From contig CP002190.1 in the NCBI GenBank assembly GCA_000525675.1, positions 372,001 through 436,000 of the forward strand: a stretch of DNA of 64,000 bases, in the 5' to 3' direction. This stretch comes from Bdellovibrio bacteriovorus W. Lineage in GTDB: Bacteria > Bdellovibrionota > Bdellovibrionia > Bdellovibrionales > Bdellovibrionaceae. Shown here one piece after another: positions 1,998 to 44,749 of this stretch. How positions within the stretch are numbered: the first letter of the stretch is position 1; every line of letters starts with the position of its first letter. The translations under genes were made by a program, and so were the position numbers. The notes beneath the pieces were generated by a model. That model had not been told where the DNA came from, ran no database searches, and was given only the letters and a program-made list of their open reading frames with translations.

Positions 1998-3458
1998 ATG
2001 AGACCATTGATCTTAAAGGCAATCGCCATTTGCGTTATATGCCTCACGCTTCCGGCGTTAACATCGGAAGCCCTCGCAGCCGATTTTCAAGGCTGTCCTG
2101 ATTGGTGTACGAAACTTCATCGCCCCGGAAGAGGGAATCTTGACTCCTATTGGTCTTGTCTAGCGCAAACAAAAAAAGAAGGAAAGTGTGGATCGACGAA
2201 TACGAAGTCGACGAGTCCACGAAAAGAAATTCCAACTCCAACTCCGCGGCCTGAAAACCCTCCTCAGCAGACACAGAGACAAGCTCCAGCAGCACCATCG
2301 CCTGTTCAATGTGTCGTGGACTATACGGCCTACTATCAAGCGTGTGAACATGAAATTCAACAAGCTGCTTATGAGTGTGATGAAGAAAATAATGATGGCA
2401 TGAACTCGGTTACAAATAGTATGTCGGCGATGGCTTTGGCTTTGGGAAATCAAACTAGTGGAAGTATTCAAGCGGCATGTTCAAAGATGGCAAACGTCAG
2501 TCAGGCGGCAAGTGCTGCTTTGGCTGCGTATAGAAACAGTTGTAACAGTGCAATTAACAGGTGCGTTTCCTCATGCGAAAACTATCGTAGATTTACTTCG
2601 AGTAACTACTCTTGTCTTTCACAGAATTTTCCAGAGAATGATGCCATACCTCACTACTCTGAAGCCAGCTCCGTTGCTCGCACCTGTCAAAATTATTCTG
2701 GTAAGCCCGAGCATGCGGGCAAAGCATTGGCAAACTTTGGGGCAACTGCTGCGAATGCGACCCAGTGTGCAAAGCTGACGGATGGGCGAAGCCCACAACA
2801 AGCATTTTGTGATGCAAATCCGCAAGTGGCGGGTTGCTCAAATCCGAATGTCGATTGTACCAATCCAAAAATTGCAGAGGCAAATCTAGTTTGTAAGTGC
2901 ACAGCCAATCCTAGTGATCCTGCTTGCCAGAGGGGGATCGCTTCTGGCGGTGGAAGTTTGTATAACGATACAACAATGGATCAGTCATCTTATCGACTGA
3001 GCGACCAAGGAAGTGATTTTACGACGGATGTTCCAAGTGTTCCAGATATACCAATGGGAGAGAGAGGGCCTGACTCAGCGTCGAGCTTAGATGGAAGTCA
3101 GGGGAGTAATTCTGCGGTATCTGGTTTGACCGGAGCAGGCTCCGGTAAAGGGGCCCAAGGAAGCCAAGACGAAGCTGCAAAGAAAGATGGTTCTGATATT
3201 TATGGTGGTTACGCCAGCGGGAGAGGAGCTGGAGCGACAGGTGGTTTTGGTGGCGGCGGAGGCGGCAGCGGCAGTGGAGGCTACGTGCCAGGGAAAGCAG
3301 GTGGTGGAGTGAAATCTCCTGACCTTGCTAAGTTTCTACCGAAGCACAATACCATGGGAGGAGCTGTGGGGTTGGACGGTATCACTGGCCCACATTCTGA
3401 TATCTGGAAAAAAATTCGCAACCGCTATCAAATATTAGATCCCACGCTACATAAATAA
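1998..3458 (+). CDS. Secreted Cys-rich and Gly-rich protein, paralogue 1
   Basis: Function not recognised. I chose the ATG at 1998 over the upstream TTG at 1962 because it begins directly with a signal peptide (MRPLILKAIAICVICL...EALA). The mature protein has a Cys-containing head (GCPDWC), a Pro/Thr-rich linker, a central Cys-bearing helical segment with the motif [14 protein letters not shown], more paired cysteines, and a long Gly/Ser-rich low-complexity region. It ends in [20 protein letters not shown]. The next gene has the same architecture and the same central and terminal motifs, so the two are tandem duplicates. Export followed by surface or envelope assembly is an inference. The bases TCCGAGAA lie just before the ATG. 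Confidence 0.85.
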   Translation: MRPLILKAIAICVICLTLPALTSEALAADFQGCPDWCTKLHRPGRGNLDSYWSCLAQTKKEGKCGSTNTKSTSPRKEIPTPTPRPENPPQQTQRQAPAAPSPVQCVVDYTAYYQACEHEIQQAAYECDEENNDGMNSVTNSMSAMALALGNQTSGSIQAACSKMANVSQAASAALAAYRNSCNSAINRCVSSCENYRRFTSSNYSCLSQNFPENDAIPHYSEASSVARTCQNYSGKPEHAGKALANFGATAANATQCAKLTDGRSPQQAFCDANPQVAGCSNPNVDCTNPKIAEANLVCKCTANPSDPACQRGIASGGGSLYNDTTMDQSSYRLSDQGSDFTTDVPSVPDIPMGERGPDSASSLDGSQGSNSAVSGLTGAGSGKGAQGSQDEAAKKDGSDIYGGYASGRGAGATGGFGGGGGGSGSGGYVPGKAGGGVKSPDLAKFLPKHNTMGGAVGLDGITGPHSDIWKKIRNRYQILDPTLHK

Positions 3459-10089: not shown

Positions 10090-10859
10090 AGAATTTGAAA
10101 TTTGTTTTAGTACTTTTAACTATTACGAGCCTCCTCAGCGGTTGTGCGACGATGAATGATTTGATGGCTTCTTTAGAAGGAAGACCGGCAGAGCCATCGT
10201 TAAAAAATATCAAATCAGCACCTCGCTATTCAGATACACAAAACTTGGGTATTCCTACAGATCGCCAATACAAGCGGATGACAAGAAATCGCATGGAAGA
10301 GGAGTCTGATCTTGGTGCCAATGCAGGATCTATGTGGGTGATGGATGGCCAAGGTGCCTATCTTTTTGCGCAAAATAAAATGCGTAAAGAAGGTGATCTC
10401 CTGAATGTGAAGCTTGAAGCTGCAGCGATGAAACAAGTTGAAACCAAAGTGGGCGTGATCAAAAAACTTTTAAAACAGTTGGATGATCAACAGGCGGCTT
10501 TGAATAATTCTTTAGCGGGTGTTGGACGAGATACGACTCGTAATCTTGCTTCAGCAGAAGGGGGAGCTACTCCTGTTGAACCGCAAGCAACAGCTGCCGC
10601 CACTCCTGCGACAGACACTCCTGAGAAGGAAGAAGCGCCTAATGTTGAGAACATTCCAACTCGTCTTGTAGAAAAACTTGCCGATGGAAATTATAGAGTC
10701 AAAGGGCAACAACCCTTCATGATTGGTAAACGAGAATACAAGGTCATTGTTACAGGTCTCATTCGACCTGAAGACTTCAATGATCAAGGAATTTCTTCGG
10801 ATAGATTATTAGATCCACAATACGATGTTGTGAGTATTAGAAAGAGCCGCAATGAATAG
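10086..10859 (+). CDS. flgH: Flagellar L-ring protein FlgH (lipoprotein)
   Basis: Outer-membrane lipoprotein that forms the L ring. The signal peptide ends in lipobox LSGC. The C-terminal segment GKREYKVIVTGLIRPEDFN matches the conserved FlgH end (KVSGIVRPxD type). The middle carries an Ala/Pro/Thr-rich insertion of about 40 residues not usual in E. coli FlgH, where the pre-lipoprotein is about 230 residues against 257 here. Start and stop overlap flgA and flgI, showing tight operon coupling. Confidence 0.9.
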   Translation: MKNLKFVLVLLTITSLLSGCATMNDLMASLEGRPAEPSLKNIKSAPRYSDTQNLGIPTDRQYKRMTRNRMEEESDLGANAGSMWVMDGQGAYLFAQNKMRKEGDLLNVKLEAAAMKQVETKVGVIKKLLKQLDDQQAALNNSLAGVGRDTTRNLASAEGGATPVEPQATAAATPATDTPEKEEAPNVENIPTRLVEKLADGNYRVKGQQPFMIGKREYKVIVTGLIRPEDFNDQGISSDRLLDPQYDVVSIRKSRNE

Positions 10860-11868
10860 AATCATTTCTTTTGGAATCGTACTTATTGCCGTTGTATTTG
10901 CATTTCTTGAAAGTGCAGAAGCCGCGCGCTTAAAAGATATCGCAAGTGTGCGTGGATTCCGCGAAAACCAATTGATTGGTTACGGGATTGTTGTGGGACT
11001 TAAAGGAACAGGTGATGGGAAAAACGAATACATGAGTAAGAGCATGGTTCGTATGTTCGATAAGCTCGGTATGAAATTAGACTCTCCAGAGTTTGCCAGT
11101 AAAAACGTTGCAGCAGTGATTGTCACGGCTTCTATGCCAGCTTTTGGAAAAGCGGGTAATCCGATCGATATCACAGTCAGTGCCGTCGGTGATGCTTCTT
11201 CCCTCGTCGGTGGAACTCTTTTGCAGACTCCGCTTCGCGCTGCAAACGAGCAAGTTTTTGCTGTGGCACAAGGTAATATTGTGATCGGGAGCGATGGAAA
11301 AACACAGCATACAACATCTGGTCGTGTGCCAAATGGAGCTATTATCGAGAGAGATATGTCAGCCGATTTTTCTTCGCGGCAGATGTACCGGTTGACTCTC
11401 ATTAACCCTGATTTCACGACGGCAGCTCGCAGTGTTCTTACTATTAACAAAGAGCTTGGCGGTCACTATGCGACGGCTAAGGATGCAGGTACAATTGATA
11501 TTATCACTCCGTTTGCCTATGAAAATCGCGGAGTCGAATTGCTTGCGACGATTGAATCTATTGAGATCAATCCAGATATGAAAGCGCGAGTGGTGGTGAA
11601 TGAAAAGACAGGAACCATCGTGATCGGCGACAAAGTCAAAATTTCCAAAGTCGCCATTTCTCATGGTGGTCTTTCTGTTAAAGTGGGTGACGGTAAAAAG
11701 GGCTCAGCTGTTACGGAAGAAAAAATTGCTGTGCTCGATACAGGTGTCAATGTAGGCGAGCTCGTCCAAGCTTTGAACAAGTTGGGTGTCACGCCTAAAG
11801 ACCTGATAACTATACTTCAGTCCATTAAATCAGCTGGAGCTTTGCACGGGGAACTCGAAGTATTATGA
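10852..11868 (+). CDS. flgI: Flagellar P-ring protein FlgI
   Basis: Periplasmic P-ring subunit. A signal peptide (about 24 residues, ending ESAEA) precedes the canonical start ARLKDIASVRGFRENQLIGYG. Other family stretches are GDGKNEYMSKSMVRM, TASMPAFGKAGNPIDITVSA and the C-terminal LNKLGVTPKDLITILQSIKSAGALHGELEV. The 338 residues are slightly under the usual 345-370. It is the last protein-coding gene before an unusual 636-bp structured gap, so the transcript probably continues into that gap. Confidence 0.97.
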   Translation: MNRIISFGIVLIAVVFAFLESAEAARLKDIASVRGFRENQLIGYGIVVGLKGTGDGKNEYMSKSMVRMFDKLGMKLDSPEFASKNVAAVIVTASMPAFGKAGNPIDITVSAVGDASSLVGGTLLQTPLRAANEQVFAVAQGNIVIGSDGKTQHTTSGRVPNGAIIERDMSADFSSRQMYRLTLINPDFTTAARSVLTINKELGGHYATAKDAGTIDIITPFAYENRGVELLATIESIEINPDMKARVVVNEKTGTIVIGDKVKISKVAISHGGLSVKVGDGKKGSAVTEEKIAVLDTGVNVGELVQALNKLGVTPKDLITILQSIKSAGALHGELEVL

Positions 11869-11883
11869 AAATTGTGTTTCAGA

Positions 11884-12118
11884 ATGACACAATGTTTACT
11901 AGAATATTATTAGTATCCAACACATGGATGTGCTGGGTACGCGGGGAGGGTGAGGAAGAGATCGCGAACCATGGATGGTCAAGAGTCAAAAGTTTCTCGC
12001 AGGAAACAGGAGCAAAAGGTCAGCGGACACCAAGGATTGGTGGACAGAAGCCGAAGCTACACTCTAAGAATCAAGTGCAGGATGCACATGATTCTCCGAC
12101 TCAACTCCCCTTTTTTTA
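11884..12118 (+). ncRNA. Candidate CsrA-sequestering RNA (CsrB/RsmZ-like)
   Basis: Not a coding stretch. Ten GGA triplets occur between 11926 and 12082. Four sit in apical loops: CACA-TGGA-TGTG (11921-11932), ACCA-TGGA-TGGT (11968-11979), CACCA-AGGAT-TGGTG (12028-12042) and GTGC-AGGAT-GCAC (12075-12087). The last is extended by AGAATCA/TGATTCT (12067-12095). Others lie in unpaired A-rich stretches (for example AGGAAACAGGAG at 12001-12012). It ends in CCCCTTTTTTT (12107-12117), and GGGGAG at 11943-11948 could pair with CTCCCC just before the T-run. CsrA is known to bind GGA in hairpin loops. A weak sigma-70-like pair (ATGACA at 11884, TATTAT at 11905, spacing 15) would start RNA near 11917; alternatively it is processed from the flgI mRNA. 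csrA and fliW are encoded about 5 kb downstream. The function is inferred. Confidence 0.6.
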
Positions 12119-12355
12119 AAACCCATTTGGAAACCCCATCTGCTTTGTTGGTCGTGCCAAGGGCTCCTGCCCTTGTCCCTTCGGGCTGCGCGCAAAAAGA
12201 GCATCATGCTCTTTTTGTCGTCGGCGTACTGTAAGTACGCTTTCCTCCTCCCGCCGCACATCTGGGATTTCCAAATGAGTTTTAAATCTTTCAAGCGATG
12301 CATGGGTGGCTTTTCTCGCCGCGCATCTGTGGCTTTTAAAATGATTTTTCTAGTT
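12118..12355. repeat. Composite palindromic element, copy A (flgI-flgJ gap)
   Basis: Outer arms AAAACCCATTTGGAAACCCC (from 12118) and the near-complement ending at 12283 enclose three hairpins: GGGC-TCCT-GCCC (12161-12172), a 25-bp palindrome with 12-bp arms around 12205, and GCGTACT-GTA-AGTACGC (12224-12240). The right-hand motif CCGCCGCaCATCTG recurs at about 12316-12330 (TCGCCGCGCATCTGTGGC), which suggests a second degenerate unit. The motif is shared with copy C near 58485. No protein-like reading is credible. Confidence 0.65.
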
Positions 12356-12504: not shown

Positions 12505-13215
12505 ATGAGTGATGTGGGTGGTTCATCGGGGGCGGGAAAGTTTAAGCCTCTGGATAGTACATTCATGCGTCAGCCGCAGCAGAAATCTCCGGAGCAAAAG
12601 CTGCGTGATGTTTCTGAAATGTATGAGAAACATTTTTTGCGCGAAATGATGAAAGCTATGCGCTCTACGGTGCATGAAAGTGGATTCATTAAATCAAATC
12701 ATGCAGAAAAAATTTTCAGAGACCAGTTAGATGATCAGTACGTTGAAAAATGGAATGATCGCGGAGGCATTGGACTCTCTGGAATGATCTTCGAACAGCT
12801 TGTTGAAAAGTTCGGTGCGCAGTTGGGTATGAAAGCCCCGATGCATAAACCTCAAGGCCCATTGCCACTCGACGAGAAAAGTAATTTCAGACCGACAGGT
12901 TTTCAACACCCAGGGAAGAAAGAATCGCTTTCGTATAAGTTTGATATCCCGGAAAAAATTTCACTCGAAGAGTCTTCGGTGAAGAACCCTTGGGATGGGG
13001 TTTTGCTAGGAACCAAGTCCCTAGCGGATTCCCAGACAGCCCTTGAGATCCAACACGACAATGGTCTAAGAAGCCAGATGGTGTTTAAAGGGGGAGTGTC
13101 TAAAGTTTCGACAGGGGAACGATTGCAAGCTGGCGAGACTCTTGGCTTTTTAAGTCCTGAAGCGAAAATGCTGTATTGGACTGTAGAACCTAGACCAGAA
13201 ACTGCCTCAGAATGA
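12505..13215 (+). CDS. flgJ: FlgJ-like rod-binding protein with a degenerate LytM-like C-terminus
   Basis: The N-terminal half (about residues 25-110) is the rod-binding domain of FlgJ (LRDVSEMYEKHFLREMMKAMR, EKIFRDQLDDQYVEKW), a rod cap or scaffold. Instead of the C-terminal muramidase of E. coli FlgJ, residues about 150-230 look like an M23/LytM peptidase fold (NPWDGVLLG, ALEIQHDNGLRSQMVF, VSTGERLQAGETLGFLS). The metal-binding HxH end is replaced by LYWTVEP. It is therefore probably a non-catalytic wall-binding domain (inference from motifs). Its position between flgI and flgM supports the flagellar role. Confidence 0.83.
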   Translation: MSDVGGSSGAGKFKPLDSTFMRQPQQKSPEQKLRDVSEMYEKHFLREMMKAMRSTVHESGFIKSNHAEKIFRDQLDDQYVEKWNDRGGIGLSGMIFEQLVEKFGAQLGMKAPMHKPQGPLPLDEKSNFRPTGFQHPGKKESLSYKFDIPEKISLEESSVKNPWDGVLLGTKSLADSQTALEIQHDNGLRSQMVFKGGVSKVSTGERLQAGETLGFLSPEAKMLYWTVEPRPETASE

Positions 13216-17132: not shown

Positions 17133-17159
17133 TACAGTTCCGCTTAAAACTGCCGATAA
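17133..17159 (+). promoter_or_regulatory. Sigma-28 promoter of csrA
   Basis: TACAGTTC (17133-17140; 6/8 to TAAAGTTT), eleven bases, then an exact GCCGATAA (17152-17159), with the canonical spacing. The predicted start of RNA is near 17166, leaving a short leader containing AAAGGAG before the csrA ATG. This places csrA in the late flagellar class. Confidence 0.8.
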
Positions 17160-17182: not shown

Positions 17183-17410
17183 ATGCTGGTTCTCACACGG
17201 AAGTTGGGTGAAAGCATCGCTATCGATGACCACATCAAAATTAGAGTTGTCCAAATCAAAGGAAAGCAGGTTCGTTTAGGAATCGAGGCACCTAAGGACA
17301 CAAAAATTCATAGAGAAGAAGTTTATTCCGCTATTCAGGATCAGAATGAACAGTCTGCTAACGTGCCCGCCGATAAGTCGCGCAGCGTCGCAAAGCTATT
17401 GAAGCCCTAA
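17183..17410 (+). CDS. csrA: Carbon storage regulator CsrA
   Basis: Dimeric RNA-binding protein that recognises GGA in hairpin loops and usually blocks ribosome binding. The first 55 residues (MLVLTRKLGESIAIDDHIKI, then GKQVRLGIEAPKDTKIHREEVY) are a classic CsrA, including the conserved GIEAP and HREE regions. The C-terminal tail of about 20 residues extends beyond the E. coli protein (61 aa), as in FliW-regulated CsrA types, where the extension is part of the FliW contact. It is adjacent to fliW, so FliW-CsrA-flagellin partner switching is expected. Confidence 0.97.
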   Translation: MLVLTRKLGESIAIDDHIKIRVVQIKGKQVRLGIEAPKDTKIHREEVYSAIQDQNEQSANVPADKSRSVAKLLKP

Positions 17411-17550: not shown

Positions 17551-18075
17551 ATGATTATTTCGACATCACGCTTCGGCCAGGTTGAGCTGAAGGAAGAAGA
17601 TGTTCTGAATTTTCCTGAAGGCCTTTTGGGTTTCGCAGACCTAAGAAGTTTTGTCCTTTTGGATGATCCAAATGATGAGATCTTTGCATGGCTTCAAAGC
17701 TGTGAGTCTCCTCAAGTGGCGTTTCCAGTGCTTGAGCCAGAGCTTTTCATGTCACAATACAAAGTGAATTTAACGAAGGGTGACCTTGAGGGTTTGAAAA
17801 TGACCGCTCAAGATAAAGCTCGTTATTTTTCTATTATCACAATTCCAGATGATCCTACGATGATGACGGCAAACCTTAAGGCGCCAGTCGTTGTGAACGT
17901 TGAAAAGCGTACAGCTCGTCAGTGTGTTCTTCAGGATAACAATTTAGCGATCCGCGAACCGATCTTCGCAAAGCTTCAGCAACGTGTCGTTCAGAACCCT
18001 TCAGTGGCGATCAAAAACCAATCTTCTGGTATTGATGTAGCGACGAAGCTAGTGGTTAGGGACGCTGATCTTTAA
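17551..18075 (+). CDS. fliW: Flagellar assembly factor FliW (CsrA antagonist)
   Basis: Binds flagellin and CsrA: free flagellin releases CsrA to repress flagellin mRNA, and flagellin export frees FliW to inhibit CsrA. I start at the ATG at 17551 (MIISTSRFGQVELKEED), directly after GGGGGGAAGA, not at the TTG four codons earlier. Family motifs are LNFPEGLLGFADLRSFVLL, WLQSCESPQVAFPV and ITIPDDPTMMTANLKAPVVVN. A small hairpin TTAGGT-GTGG-ACCTAA lies directly upstream of the ribosome-binding site. The 3' end overlaps the convergent gene by 20 bases. Confidence 0.95.
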   Translation: MIISTSRFGQVELKEEDVLNFPEGLLGFADLRSFVLLDDPNDEIFAWLQSCESPQVAFPVLEPELFMSQYKVNLTKGDLEGLKMTAQDKARYFSIITIPDDPTMMTANLKAPVVVNVEKRTARQCVLQDNNLAIREPIFAKLQQRVVQNPSVAIKNQSSGIDVATKLVVRDADL

Positions 18076-43876: not shown

Positions 43877-44749
43877 ATGTGTGATTTAAAATCGATCTTG
43901 TTTTTGGCGTTTTTAGGATGTGTTTCGTGTATTCATGTTGAGGATATAGATCAGCCACCTGAAGAGCCGCTCCAATTGTTTCAAAGAAATATCGGAAATT
44001 TTATCGTCGATAGTGAACTCTATGTAATTCGTGGAGAAATTCTAAACAAAGAGGCCTATCAACAGAGACTATCTCTTCCACAGCCGTTGCCAGAGGAAGA
44101 TTTATCCTCAGAAACTATTGACCTCTCTTTTCAGTCGCTCACGCTAAAAAAGAACGGAGTGATCTATACCATGGGAGAGAATGTGCGGTTTAAAGTACAT
44201 CAGCTCAATGCTGAGGGCGGAAGAATTGCAACATTTCCCAAAGATCAAGTGGCAGCTCCGCAAAAAGATGGTCGTAGCGGAGGCTTTGTTTATCTCCATG
44301 CGGATATCGCCCAAGGGGACCTCTATATATCTTTATTGGGTGAAAAAGGTGGAACGGGAGAGCCTGGCAAAGATCCCGATCTCAGTCTTCGTGGTAAAGA
44401 CGGCATAGCTGTTTTTGGCCGTTGTGGGGAGGATGCCTATGTCACTGTCGGAACAAAAGGAGAGCCTGGGTTTTCCGGGGGGGCCGGTAAGAGGGGTGGC
44501 GACACTGGAAACTTTGAGCTGAATATTTCTGATCAAACGAAGTTCAGATATCACCTCGAAAAAATCCCAGGCAAAGGCGGTGATGGTGGAATGGGAGGCA
44601 GAGGTGGCGAAGGTGGACATACTCCGAATCTTTGTGGGATGGGAAGGAAACCTGTGGAAGGGGACCGAGGAATACCTGGCTCTCCGGGAGCAGATGGTGG
44701 ACTTGGAAGTCTTTGTCTGACCAGTCACGGAGCAACAACCTGTTTATAA
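43877..44749 (+). CDS. Collagen-like Gly-X-Y lipoprotein
   Basis: A 290-residue lipoprotein (signal peptide with VSCIHVE as the probable lipobox region). The central beta-rich part ends near residue 150. The rest is collagen-like: GEKGGTGEPGKD, GTKGEPGFSGGAGKRGGDTG, GKGGDGGMGGRGGEGG and GDRGIPGSPGADGGLG. Cys pairs (GRCGEDAY, NLCGMG) interrupt it. Collagen-like tails in bacteria form extracellular fibres or stalks; outer-surface location is inferred. GGAG lies about eight bases before the ATG. Confidence 0.85.
   Translation: MCDLKSILFLAFLGCVSCIHVEDIDQPPEEPLQLFQRNIGNFIVDSELYVIRGEILNKEAYQQRLSLPQPLPEEDLSSETIDLSFQSLTLKKNGVIYTMGENVRFKVHQLNAEGGRIATFPKDQVAAPQKDGRSGGFVYLHADIAQGDLYISLLGEKGGTGEPGKDPDLSLRGKDGIAVFGRCGEDAYVTVGTKGEPGFSGGAGKRGGDTGNFELNISDQTKFRYHLEKIPGKGGDGGMGGRGGEGGHTPNLCGMGRKPVEGDRGIPGSPGADGGLGSLCLTSHGATTCL

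Follow-up and report, generated by a model that had tools for sequence, protein, structure and literature searches.

The GGA-rich element lying between flgI and flgJ in Bdellovibrio bacteriovorus W (+ strand, 11911-12117 of the window, i.e. of the whole stretch of 64,000 nucleotides that was analysed) was found to be a discrete, structured, non-coding RNA of 207 nt. We consider it very probable that this region is the gene of a small RNA which sequesters CsrA, acting beside FliW to release flagellin synthesis; neither binding nor genetic data are available. Transcription of the RNA from its own promoter is established in B. bacteriovorus, where it corresponds to APsRNA1, and selection on its structure and on its GGA loops across the class is shown, as judged from the comparison of homologues. 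Short of CsrA binding and antagonism in vivo, the criteria for a CsrA sponge are met, namely several hairpin loops containing GGA, a discrete non-coding transcript with its own promoter and terminator, and a CsrA with intact RNA-binding residues. Coordinates of all features are collected in Table 1.

Table 1. Features of the flgI-flgJ interval and of the csrA-fliW locus, in window coordinates
Feature	Position	Strand	Remarks
flgI, upstream neighbour	10852..11868	+	PF02119
Inverted repeat TGTTTCAGAATGACACA, putative operator	11875..11891	+	over the -35/spacer region
-10 box TAGAAT, the RNA's own promoter	11900..11905	+	TANAAT-like box kept in most homologues
Small RNA	11911..12117	+	207 nt; counterpart of APsRNA1 in HD100; start deduced from -10 spacing
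Hairpin P0, core ACAUGGAUGU	11913..11940	+	GGA 11926-11928; precedes the closing helix
Closing helix P1a, 5′ strand GGGGAG	11943..11948	+	pairs with 12105-12110
Closing helix P1b, 5′ strand GAGGAAGAG (GAGUUAGAG in other genera)	11952..11960	+	pairs with 12094-12102; compensated changes
Hairpin P2 ACCAUGGAUGGU	11968..11979	+	GGA 11973-11975
Hairpin P3 GUUUCUCGCAGGAAAC	11992..12007	+	GGA 12002-12004 at loop/stem edge
Hairpin P4 CACCAAGGAUUGGUG	12028..12042	+	GGA 12034-12036
Hairpin P5, AGGAU apical loop	12067..12095	+	GGA 12080-12082
Closing helix 3′ strands (CUCCGACUC, CUCCCC) and U7 tract	12094..12117	+	pairs with 11943-11960
flgJ, downstream neighbour	12505..13215	+	PF10135, rod-binding
csrA, presumed binding partner	17183..17410	+	PF02599; L4, R44, N55 present
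fliW, protein antagonist of CsrA	17551..18075	+	PF02623

The transcript itself is documented in strain HD100. The merRNA coordinates given in PMC3627812 land on a c-di-GMP-I riboswitch in the relative genome G006, which was taken as HD100; its identification as HD100 rests on such agreement of coordinates and not on a name. The element spans 499336-499585 in that genome and contains APsRNA1 (499,375-499,581, + strand, 207 nt; Karunker et al. 2013, PMC3627812), a sequenced transcript with a mapped start site, to which no function was given, and whose expression is 16 fold up in attack phase (50,451 RPKM, versus 3,181 in growth phase; PMC3627812). The HD100 start lies 6 nt past the end of a TACAAT box, and the 3′ end falls in the U tract after CUCCCC, as in the window RNA, whose bounds were set by applying the HD100 spacing between -10 box and start. 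A previous reading of the same DNA, made from the sequence alone, had predicted a discrete RNA of about 200 nt, and APsRNA1 bears this out. That sequence-only reading had the stretch begin at 11884; the RNA is indeed there on the + strand, but so early a start takes in promoter DNA. No further mention of APsRNA1 was found in other open-licence papers, and we cannot exclude one in a paper that was not seen. The other attack-phase sRNAs of HD100 have GGA counts near or moderately above expectation.

A promoter scan detected TTCAGA-16-TAGAAT ahead of the RNA, and the distance of the TANAAT box to the RNA is constant in most homologues. The repeat TGTTTCNNAATGANACA precedes the RNA across the genus and in several other lineages and families, and the genome has 5 further near-matches, with 1 mismatch each, versus 1 for the reversed control. 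The 17 nucleotides of this repeat listed in Table 1 are a putative operator of the RNA promoter, for a regulator that is unknown. Among the six matches or near-matches of the genome (L177-L182), one (L181) lies upstream of a CheW-like gene. It had also been proposed that the RNA couples transcription of rod and ring genes to flagellin translation. This is doubtful, given that the RNA is transcribed from a promoter of its own, with a conserved -10 box and a mapped start. Read-through from flgI may add to the level of the RNA.

Ten GGA are present within 11926-12082, as first reported, but the expectation of two or three put forward with this count was too low. From local composition 6.2 would be expected, and shuffling the 207-nt RNA yielded means of 5.1 with mononucleotides (p 0.012) and 6.5 with dinucleotides (p 0.039). 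Glycine-rich coding stretches of the same window (at 44588, inside a Gly-rich ORF, and at 3220) reach 10 to 13 GGA. Because the stretch is purine-rich, with an expectation of about 6, the number of GGA by itself is a modest surplus and weak evidence. Their placement in loops, rather than their number, is the exceptional feature, and gives strong evidence: five hairpin loops of the MFE fold contain GGA, versus 0.5 on average after dinucleotide shuffling (none of 600 shuffles reached 5), and the z-score of the folding energy against shuffles is -3.4. The four apical GGA loops described earlier were all recovered, as UGGA at 11925-11928 and 11972-11975, and as AGGAU at 12033-12037 and 12079-12083, together with the terminal C4T7 (12107-12117). 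The last stem consists of 7 + 5 pairs around an A-A mismatch, and equals the 11 pairs with AGGAT pentaloop of the former description.

The RNA starts with the 5′ hairpin P0, followed by helix P1, which encloses P2 to P5 and closes onto the U tract (GGGGAG...GAGNNNGAG pairs with CUCNNNCUC..CUCCCC). The closing helix and U7 form an intrinsic terminator. Covariation was scored on a MAFFT alignment of 41 homologues that had not been fitted to any structure, with 45 pairs specified by hand. These pairs formed in 87.4% of the cells, and 24 of them were changed on both sides; the covariation score was 0.304, where shuffles gave 0.139 and slid versions did not exceed 0.080. In P0, 9 of 10 consensus pairs were changed on both sides and GGA was kept in 41/41 homologues. 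All 6 pairs of P4 were changed in the same way (GGA in 33/41), and the apical stem of P5 was compensated (GGA in 41/41). Covariation was small in P2, the stem of which is conserved (GGA in 40/41), and also in P3, nearly invariant in sequence, with a stem compensated in L043 and a GGA that stays at the loop edge in 39/41 and is partly paired. As to P1, GGGU/ACCC substitute for the P1a strands in L046 and L047 (family f10), where the helix reads GGGU..GGUGGGUUGGAG / CUCCGAUCCACC..ACCC, and in the B. exovorus-like genus it is reshaped with compensation, into GGGGAGGGUCC / GGACACUCCCC or GGGAGGGGUUCUU / AAGAACUCUUCUC. Compensatory changes in the stems of homologous flgI-flgJ gaps, with the GGA loops kept, had thus been rightly anticipated. 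Such a turnover of stems around a constant GGA is what protein-binding hairpins are expected to show. P0 and P5 are in addition similar to the published ligand consensus RUACARGGAUGU and to the CsrB element CAGGA(U/A/C)G (PMC7652899). The shortest form of the RNA, 130 nt (L048, in genome G049), has P3 and P4 deleted and retains P0, P2, P5 and the closing helix.

By blastn, the element was detected throughout the genus and in further families; wherever flgI and flgJ could be located, it lay in the gap between them. With a covariance model, the window copy scored E 2.6e-70 and no second copy was found in its genome; matches were obtained in 110 of 141 genomes of the order, representing 55 of its 66 genera; for the class the figure was 113 of 144, with one strong copy per genome. 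The order flgI-RNA-flgJ held in all of the ~60 strong copies whose neighbours were checked. A pattern scan of named genomes returned 22 records, nearly all titled as Bdellovibrio, Bdellovibrionaceae, Bdellovibrionales or Oligoflexia. One record titled as a Streptomyces griseus MAG (CALQIT020000063.1) also has the RNA; it matches G062, of the window's family, and is probably mislabelled. The covariance model gave no strong match elsewhere in the phylum. Three weak ones outside the class (E 4e-4 to 9e-3) were rejected: one lies next to a tRNA, another falls within a 5′ leader, and the third is a short partial match. In a weak out-of-class match on the - strand (L114, genome G259), GCCATGGACGGTTAAGAGC and GCTAAGGATGGC stand ahead of an ORF start, possibly as the leader of a CsrA target. 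A non-flagellar leader (L111, genome G114, ~2012-2169, - strand) has several GGA hairpins and runs into an ORF with a signal-peptide-like start; it may belong to a strongly CsrA-controlled mRNA.

In the window, an insert (12117-12345), bounded by the near-inverted repeats TTTAAAACCCATTTGGAAA / TTTAAAACTCATTTGGAAA, separates the U tract from flgJ. It has no second copy in the window and a partial likeness in L132 only; other species have unrelated inserts, up to 524 nt, at the same site. The RNA is gone from three genomes (G069, G077 and G081), where flgI abuts flgJ though the flg-csrA-fliW cluster is intact; relocated copies were sought there with a model of the B. exovorus lineage, and only weak, unconvincing matches came out. 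Since these species keep csrA, fliW and the flg genes, the RNA is dispensable in some species. Reduced genomes of the order (1.2-2 Mb; G102, G103, G109, G111, G125, G128-G131) retain a diverged CsrA. In G102, G103, G125, G130 and G131, neither FliW nor the flg cluster was found near csrA, and the RNA is absent.

The genes csrA and fliW lie ~5 kb downstream of the RNA, and all three are contained within about 6 kb, both in the window and in HD100. CsrA is present in 103/103 good-quality genomes of the order, and that of the window has relatives with solved structures. Residues L4 and R44 of CsrA are RNA contacts. Both the adjacency of fliW to csrA and the presence of N55, the CsrA residue contacting FliW in other species (PMC13407953), hold in the window and in HD100. 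Immediately ahead of csrA (17133-17159) lies a sigma-28-like promoter, TACA-N15-GCCGATAA, so that FliA may drive csrA-fliW separately from the flg genes upstream. The leader of the main flagellin in the window's genome (L172) reads CUGAGUUUC-AAGGAUC-GAAACUCAG, then AAGGAGGAGG and AUG. Its GGA hairpin, ~30 nt before the start codon, was found in 29 of 30 orthologues, versus 7% of shuffles. In other families, compensated changes have rebuilt the stem; in distant leaders, stems were compared one by one and not by alignment. The flagellin gene that follows shows two further GGA hairpins, and its ribosome site also contains GGA. The same layout, with a GGA hairpin of the leader preceding the ribosome site, is known from CsrA control of B. 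subtilis hag. Flagellin is likely a CsrA target here, independently of the RNA, the binding being inferred from leader sequence and covariation.

In the mechanism that we propose, each hairpin would hold one RNA-binding face of a CsrA dimer, and we infer that one RNA would take up about two to three dimers. CsrA would repress flagellin translation via the GGA hairpin of the leader and the adjacent GGAGGAGG ribosome site, where binding is again an inference. The rise of the RNA in attack phase would take CsrA off flagellin leaders and other mRNAs, and FliW, encoded in the same cluster, would block CsrA by a different mechanism, alongside the RNA. Sequestration of CsrA, as suggested by the sequence-only reading, is well supported by the transcript, the covariation and the conserved GGA loops, without data on CsrA binding. 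It is also favoured by the reduced genomes that keep CsrA, in which neither a flg cluster near csrA nor the RNA was found. Against it stand the small number of good sites, only about five beside the 22 GGA of CsrB, the partly paired GGA of P3, the small covariation of P2 and the loss of the RNA in three genomes. For a sponge, abundance matters more than length.

The class-wide synteny with flgJ also fits a role in cis. The element could be an attenuator sensing CsrA, which would open or close the terminator helix (5′ strand GGGGAG), and set read-through into flgJ, flgM, flgN, flgK, flgL and perhaps csrA-fliW. The flgI-flgJ location is seen in every strong match checked, the closing helix is itself the terminator, and the U tract ends at most 60 nt from the flgJ start in 24 of the 41 homologues, leaving little room for a separate promoter, so that downstream genes may depend on terminator read-through. 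However, the gap to flgJ ranges from ~0 to 524 nt with unrelated inserts, flgI abuts flgJ without the RNA in G069, G077 and G081, and csrA has its own sigma-28-like promoter. APsRNA1, moreover, is abundant and was called only once intergenic signals continuous with a downstream gene, or resembling a 5′UTR, had been dropped (PMC3627812). We regard such an attenuator as quite improbable: a role in trans is favoured by a transcript that is both discrete and abundant, by the variable spacing and by the clean losses, but both could be true. An ancient switch with two antagonists would combine them, FliW and the RNA restraining CsrA throughout the class, and the terminator of the RNA also sensing free CsrA in cis, setting flgJ and later genes. 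The cis sensing is suggested by the fact that the terminator is the closing helix next to the CsrA sites; this combined scheme is possible, and in our opinion unlikely.

The RNA might also act on mRNAs by base pairing through its unpaired linkers, merely stabilised or chaperoned by CsrA, which is able to assist sRNA-mRNA pairing (PMC7652899). Within the family, linkers such as AGGUCAGC and GAGCCGAAGC are conserved; in other families, as in the 130-nt form, they are variable or missing where the GGA hairpins stay, and this makes the possibility a very slim one. We give hardly any weight to the view that this is a structural or processing RNA, or one serving another protein (6S-like or other), whose GGA loops are coincidental. 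Abundance in attack phase and the lack of direct CsrA data would be compatible with it; yet Rfam gave no match whatsoever, chance does not account for the GGA in all five hairpins (0/600 shuffles), and hairpins of the same type occur at flagellin ribosome sites. Finally, an 84-aa ORF (11865-12119) is open in 32 of the 41 homologues, mostly of the same genus. Its variable columns have no codon periodicity (36/41/36), its frame is not kept in other families, and the constraint is explained by covariation; the small protein was rejected on the lack of codon-position bias and the loss of the frame, we attach next to no credence to it, and the earlier statement that the stretch has no protein-like reading stands despite this ORF.

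The preferred reading, sequestration of CsrA, bears on a question left undetermined. In reviews, antagonism of CsrA by sRNAs is treated as a mainly gammaproteobacterial trait, replaced by FliW in other groups. According to one of them, Gammaproteobacteria lack fliW, and it has yet to be determined if any species uses FliW and sRNAs jointly against CsrA (PMC7652899). A 2026 paper on Geobacter likewise describes sRNA control as principally gammaproteobacterial, with no characterised sRNA of the CsrB/C family there (PMC13407953). Here, FliW and a class-conserved candidate sponge are encoded no more than about 6 kb apart, and this holds for the window as well as for HD100. A function is thereby suggested for the orphan attack-phase RNA APsRNA1, as well as a post-transcriptional level of control when the predator changes between swimming and growth, and the sponge reading is directly testable since HD100 is the model strain.

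Among known RNAs, APsRNA1 of HD100 is the same RNA by position, strand, length, -10 box and terminator; the paper describing it proposes no function, reports no homologue beyond B. bacteriovorus and is silent on CsrA (PMC3627812). B. bacteriovorus merRNA is another attack-phase RNA proposed as a sponge, but has a c-di-GMP riboswitch (RF01051) and not GGA hairpins. Like CsrB/CsrC and RsmX/Y/Z, the RNA is non-coding and has multiple GGA hairpins, its own promoter and an intrinsic terminator. Unlike these RNAs, it occurs in another phylum, is closed by a long-range terminator helix and lies in a flagellar cluster near csrA-fliW; it also differs in having about five sites, versus 22 GGA in CsrB, and a promoter with a TGTTTC..GAAACA-type repeat, an inverted repeat different from that of the Csr RNAs controlled by BarA-UvrY/GacA. 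At the Rfam gathering score, neither the window nor the HD100 locus matched CsrB (RF00018), CsrC, RsmY, RsmZ/PrrB or TwoAYGGAY, and none of these appeared even at E 10. The RNA would work like CsrB/RsmZ, yet outside their described sequence families, a likeness that no binding data support so far. The setting resembles the CsrA-FliW-flagellin circuit of B. subtilis hag, C. jejuni flaA and Geobacter, with csrA-fliW downstream of flgL, N55, and a leader GGA hairpin ahead of the ribosome site. Those systems are said to lack antagonist sRNAs (PMC4894983, PMC13407953), whereas both antagonists are encoded here.
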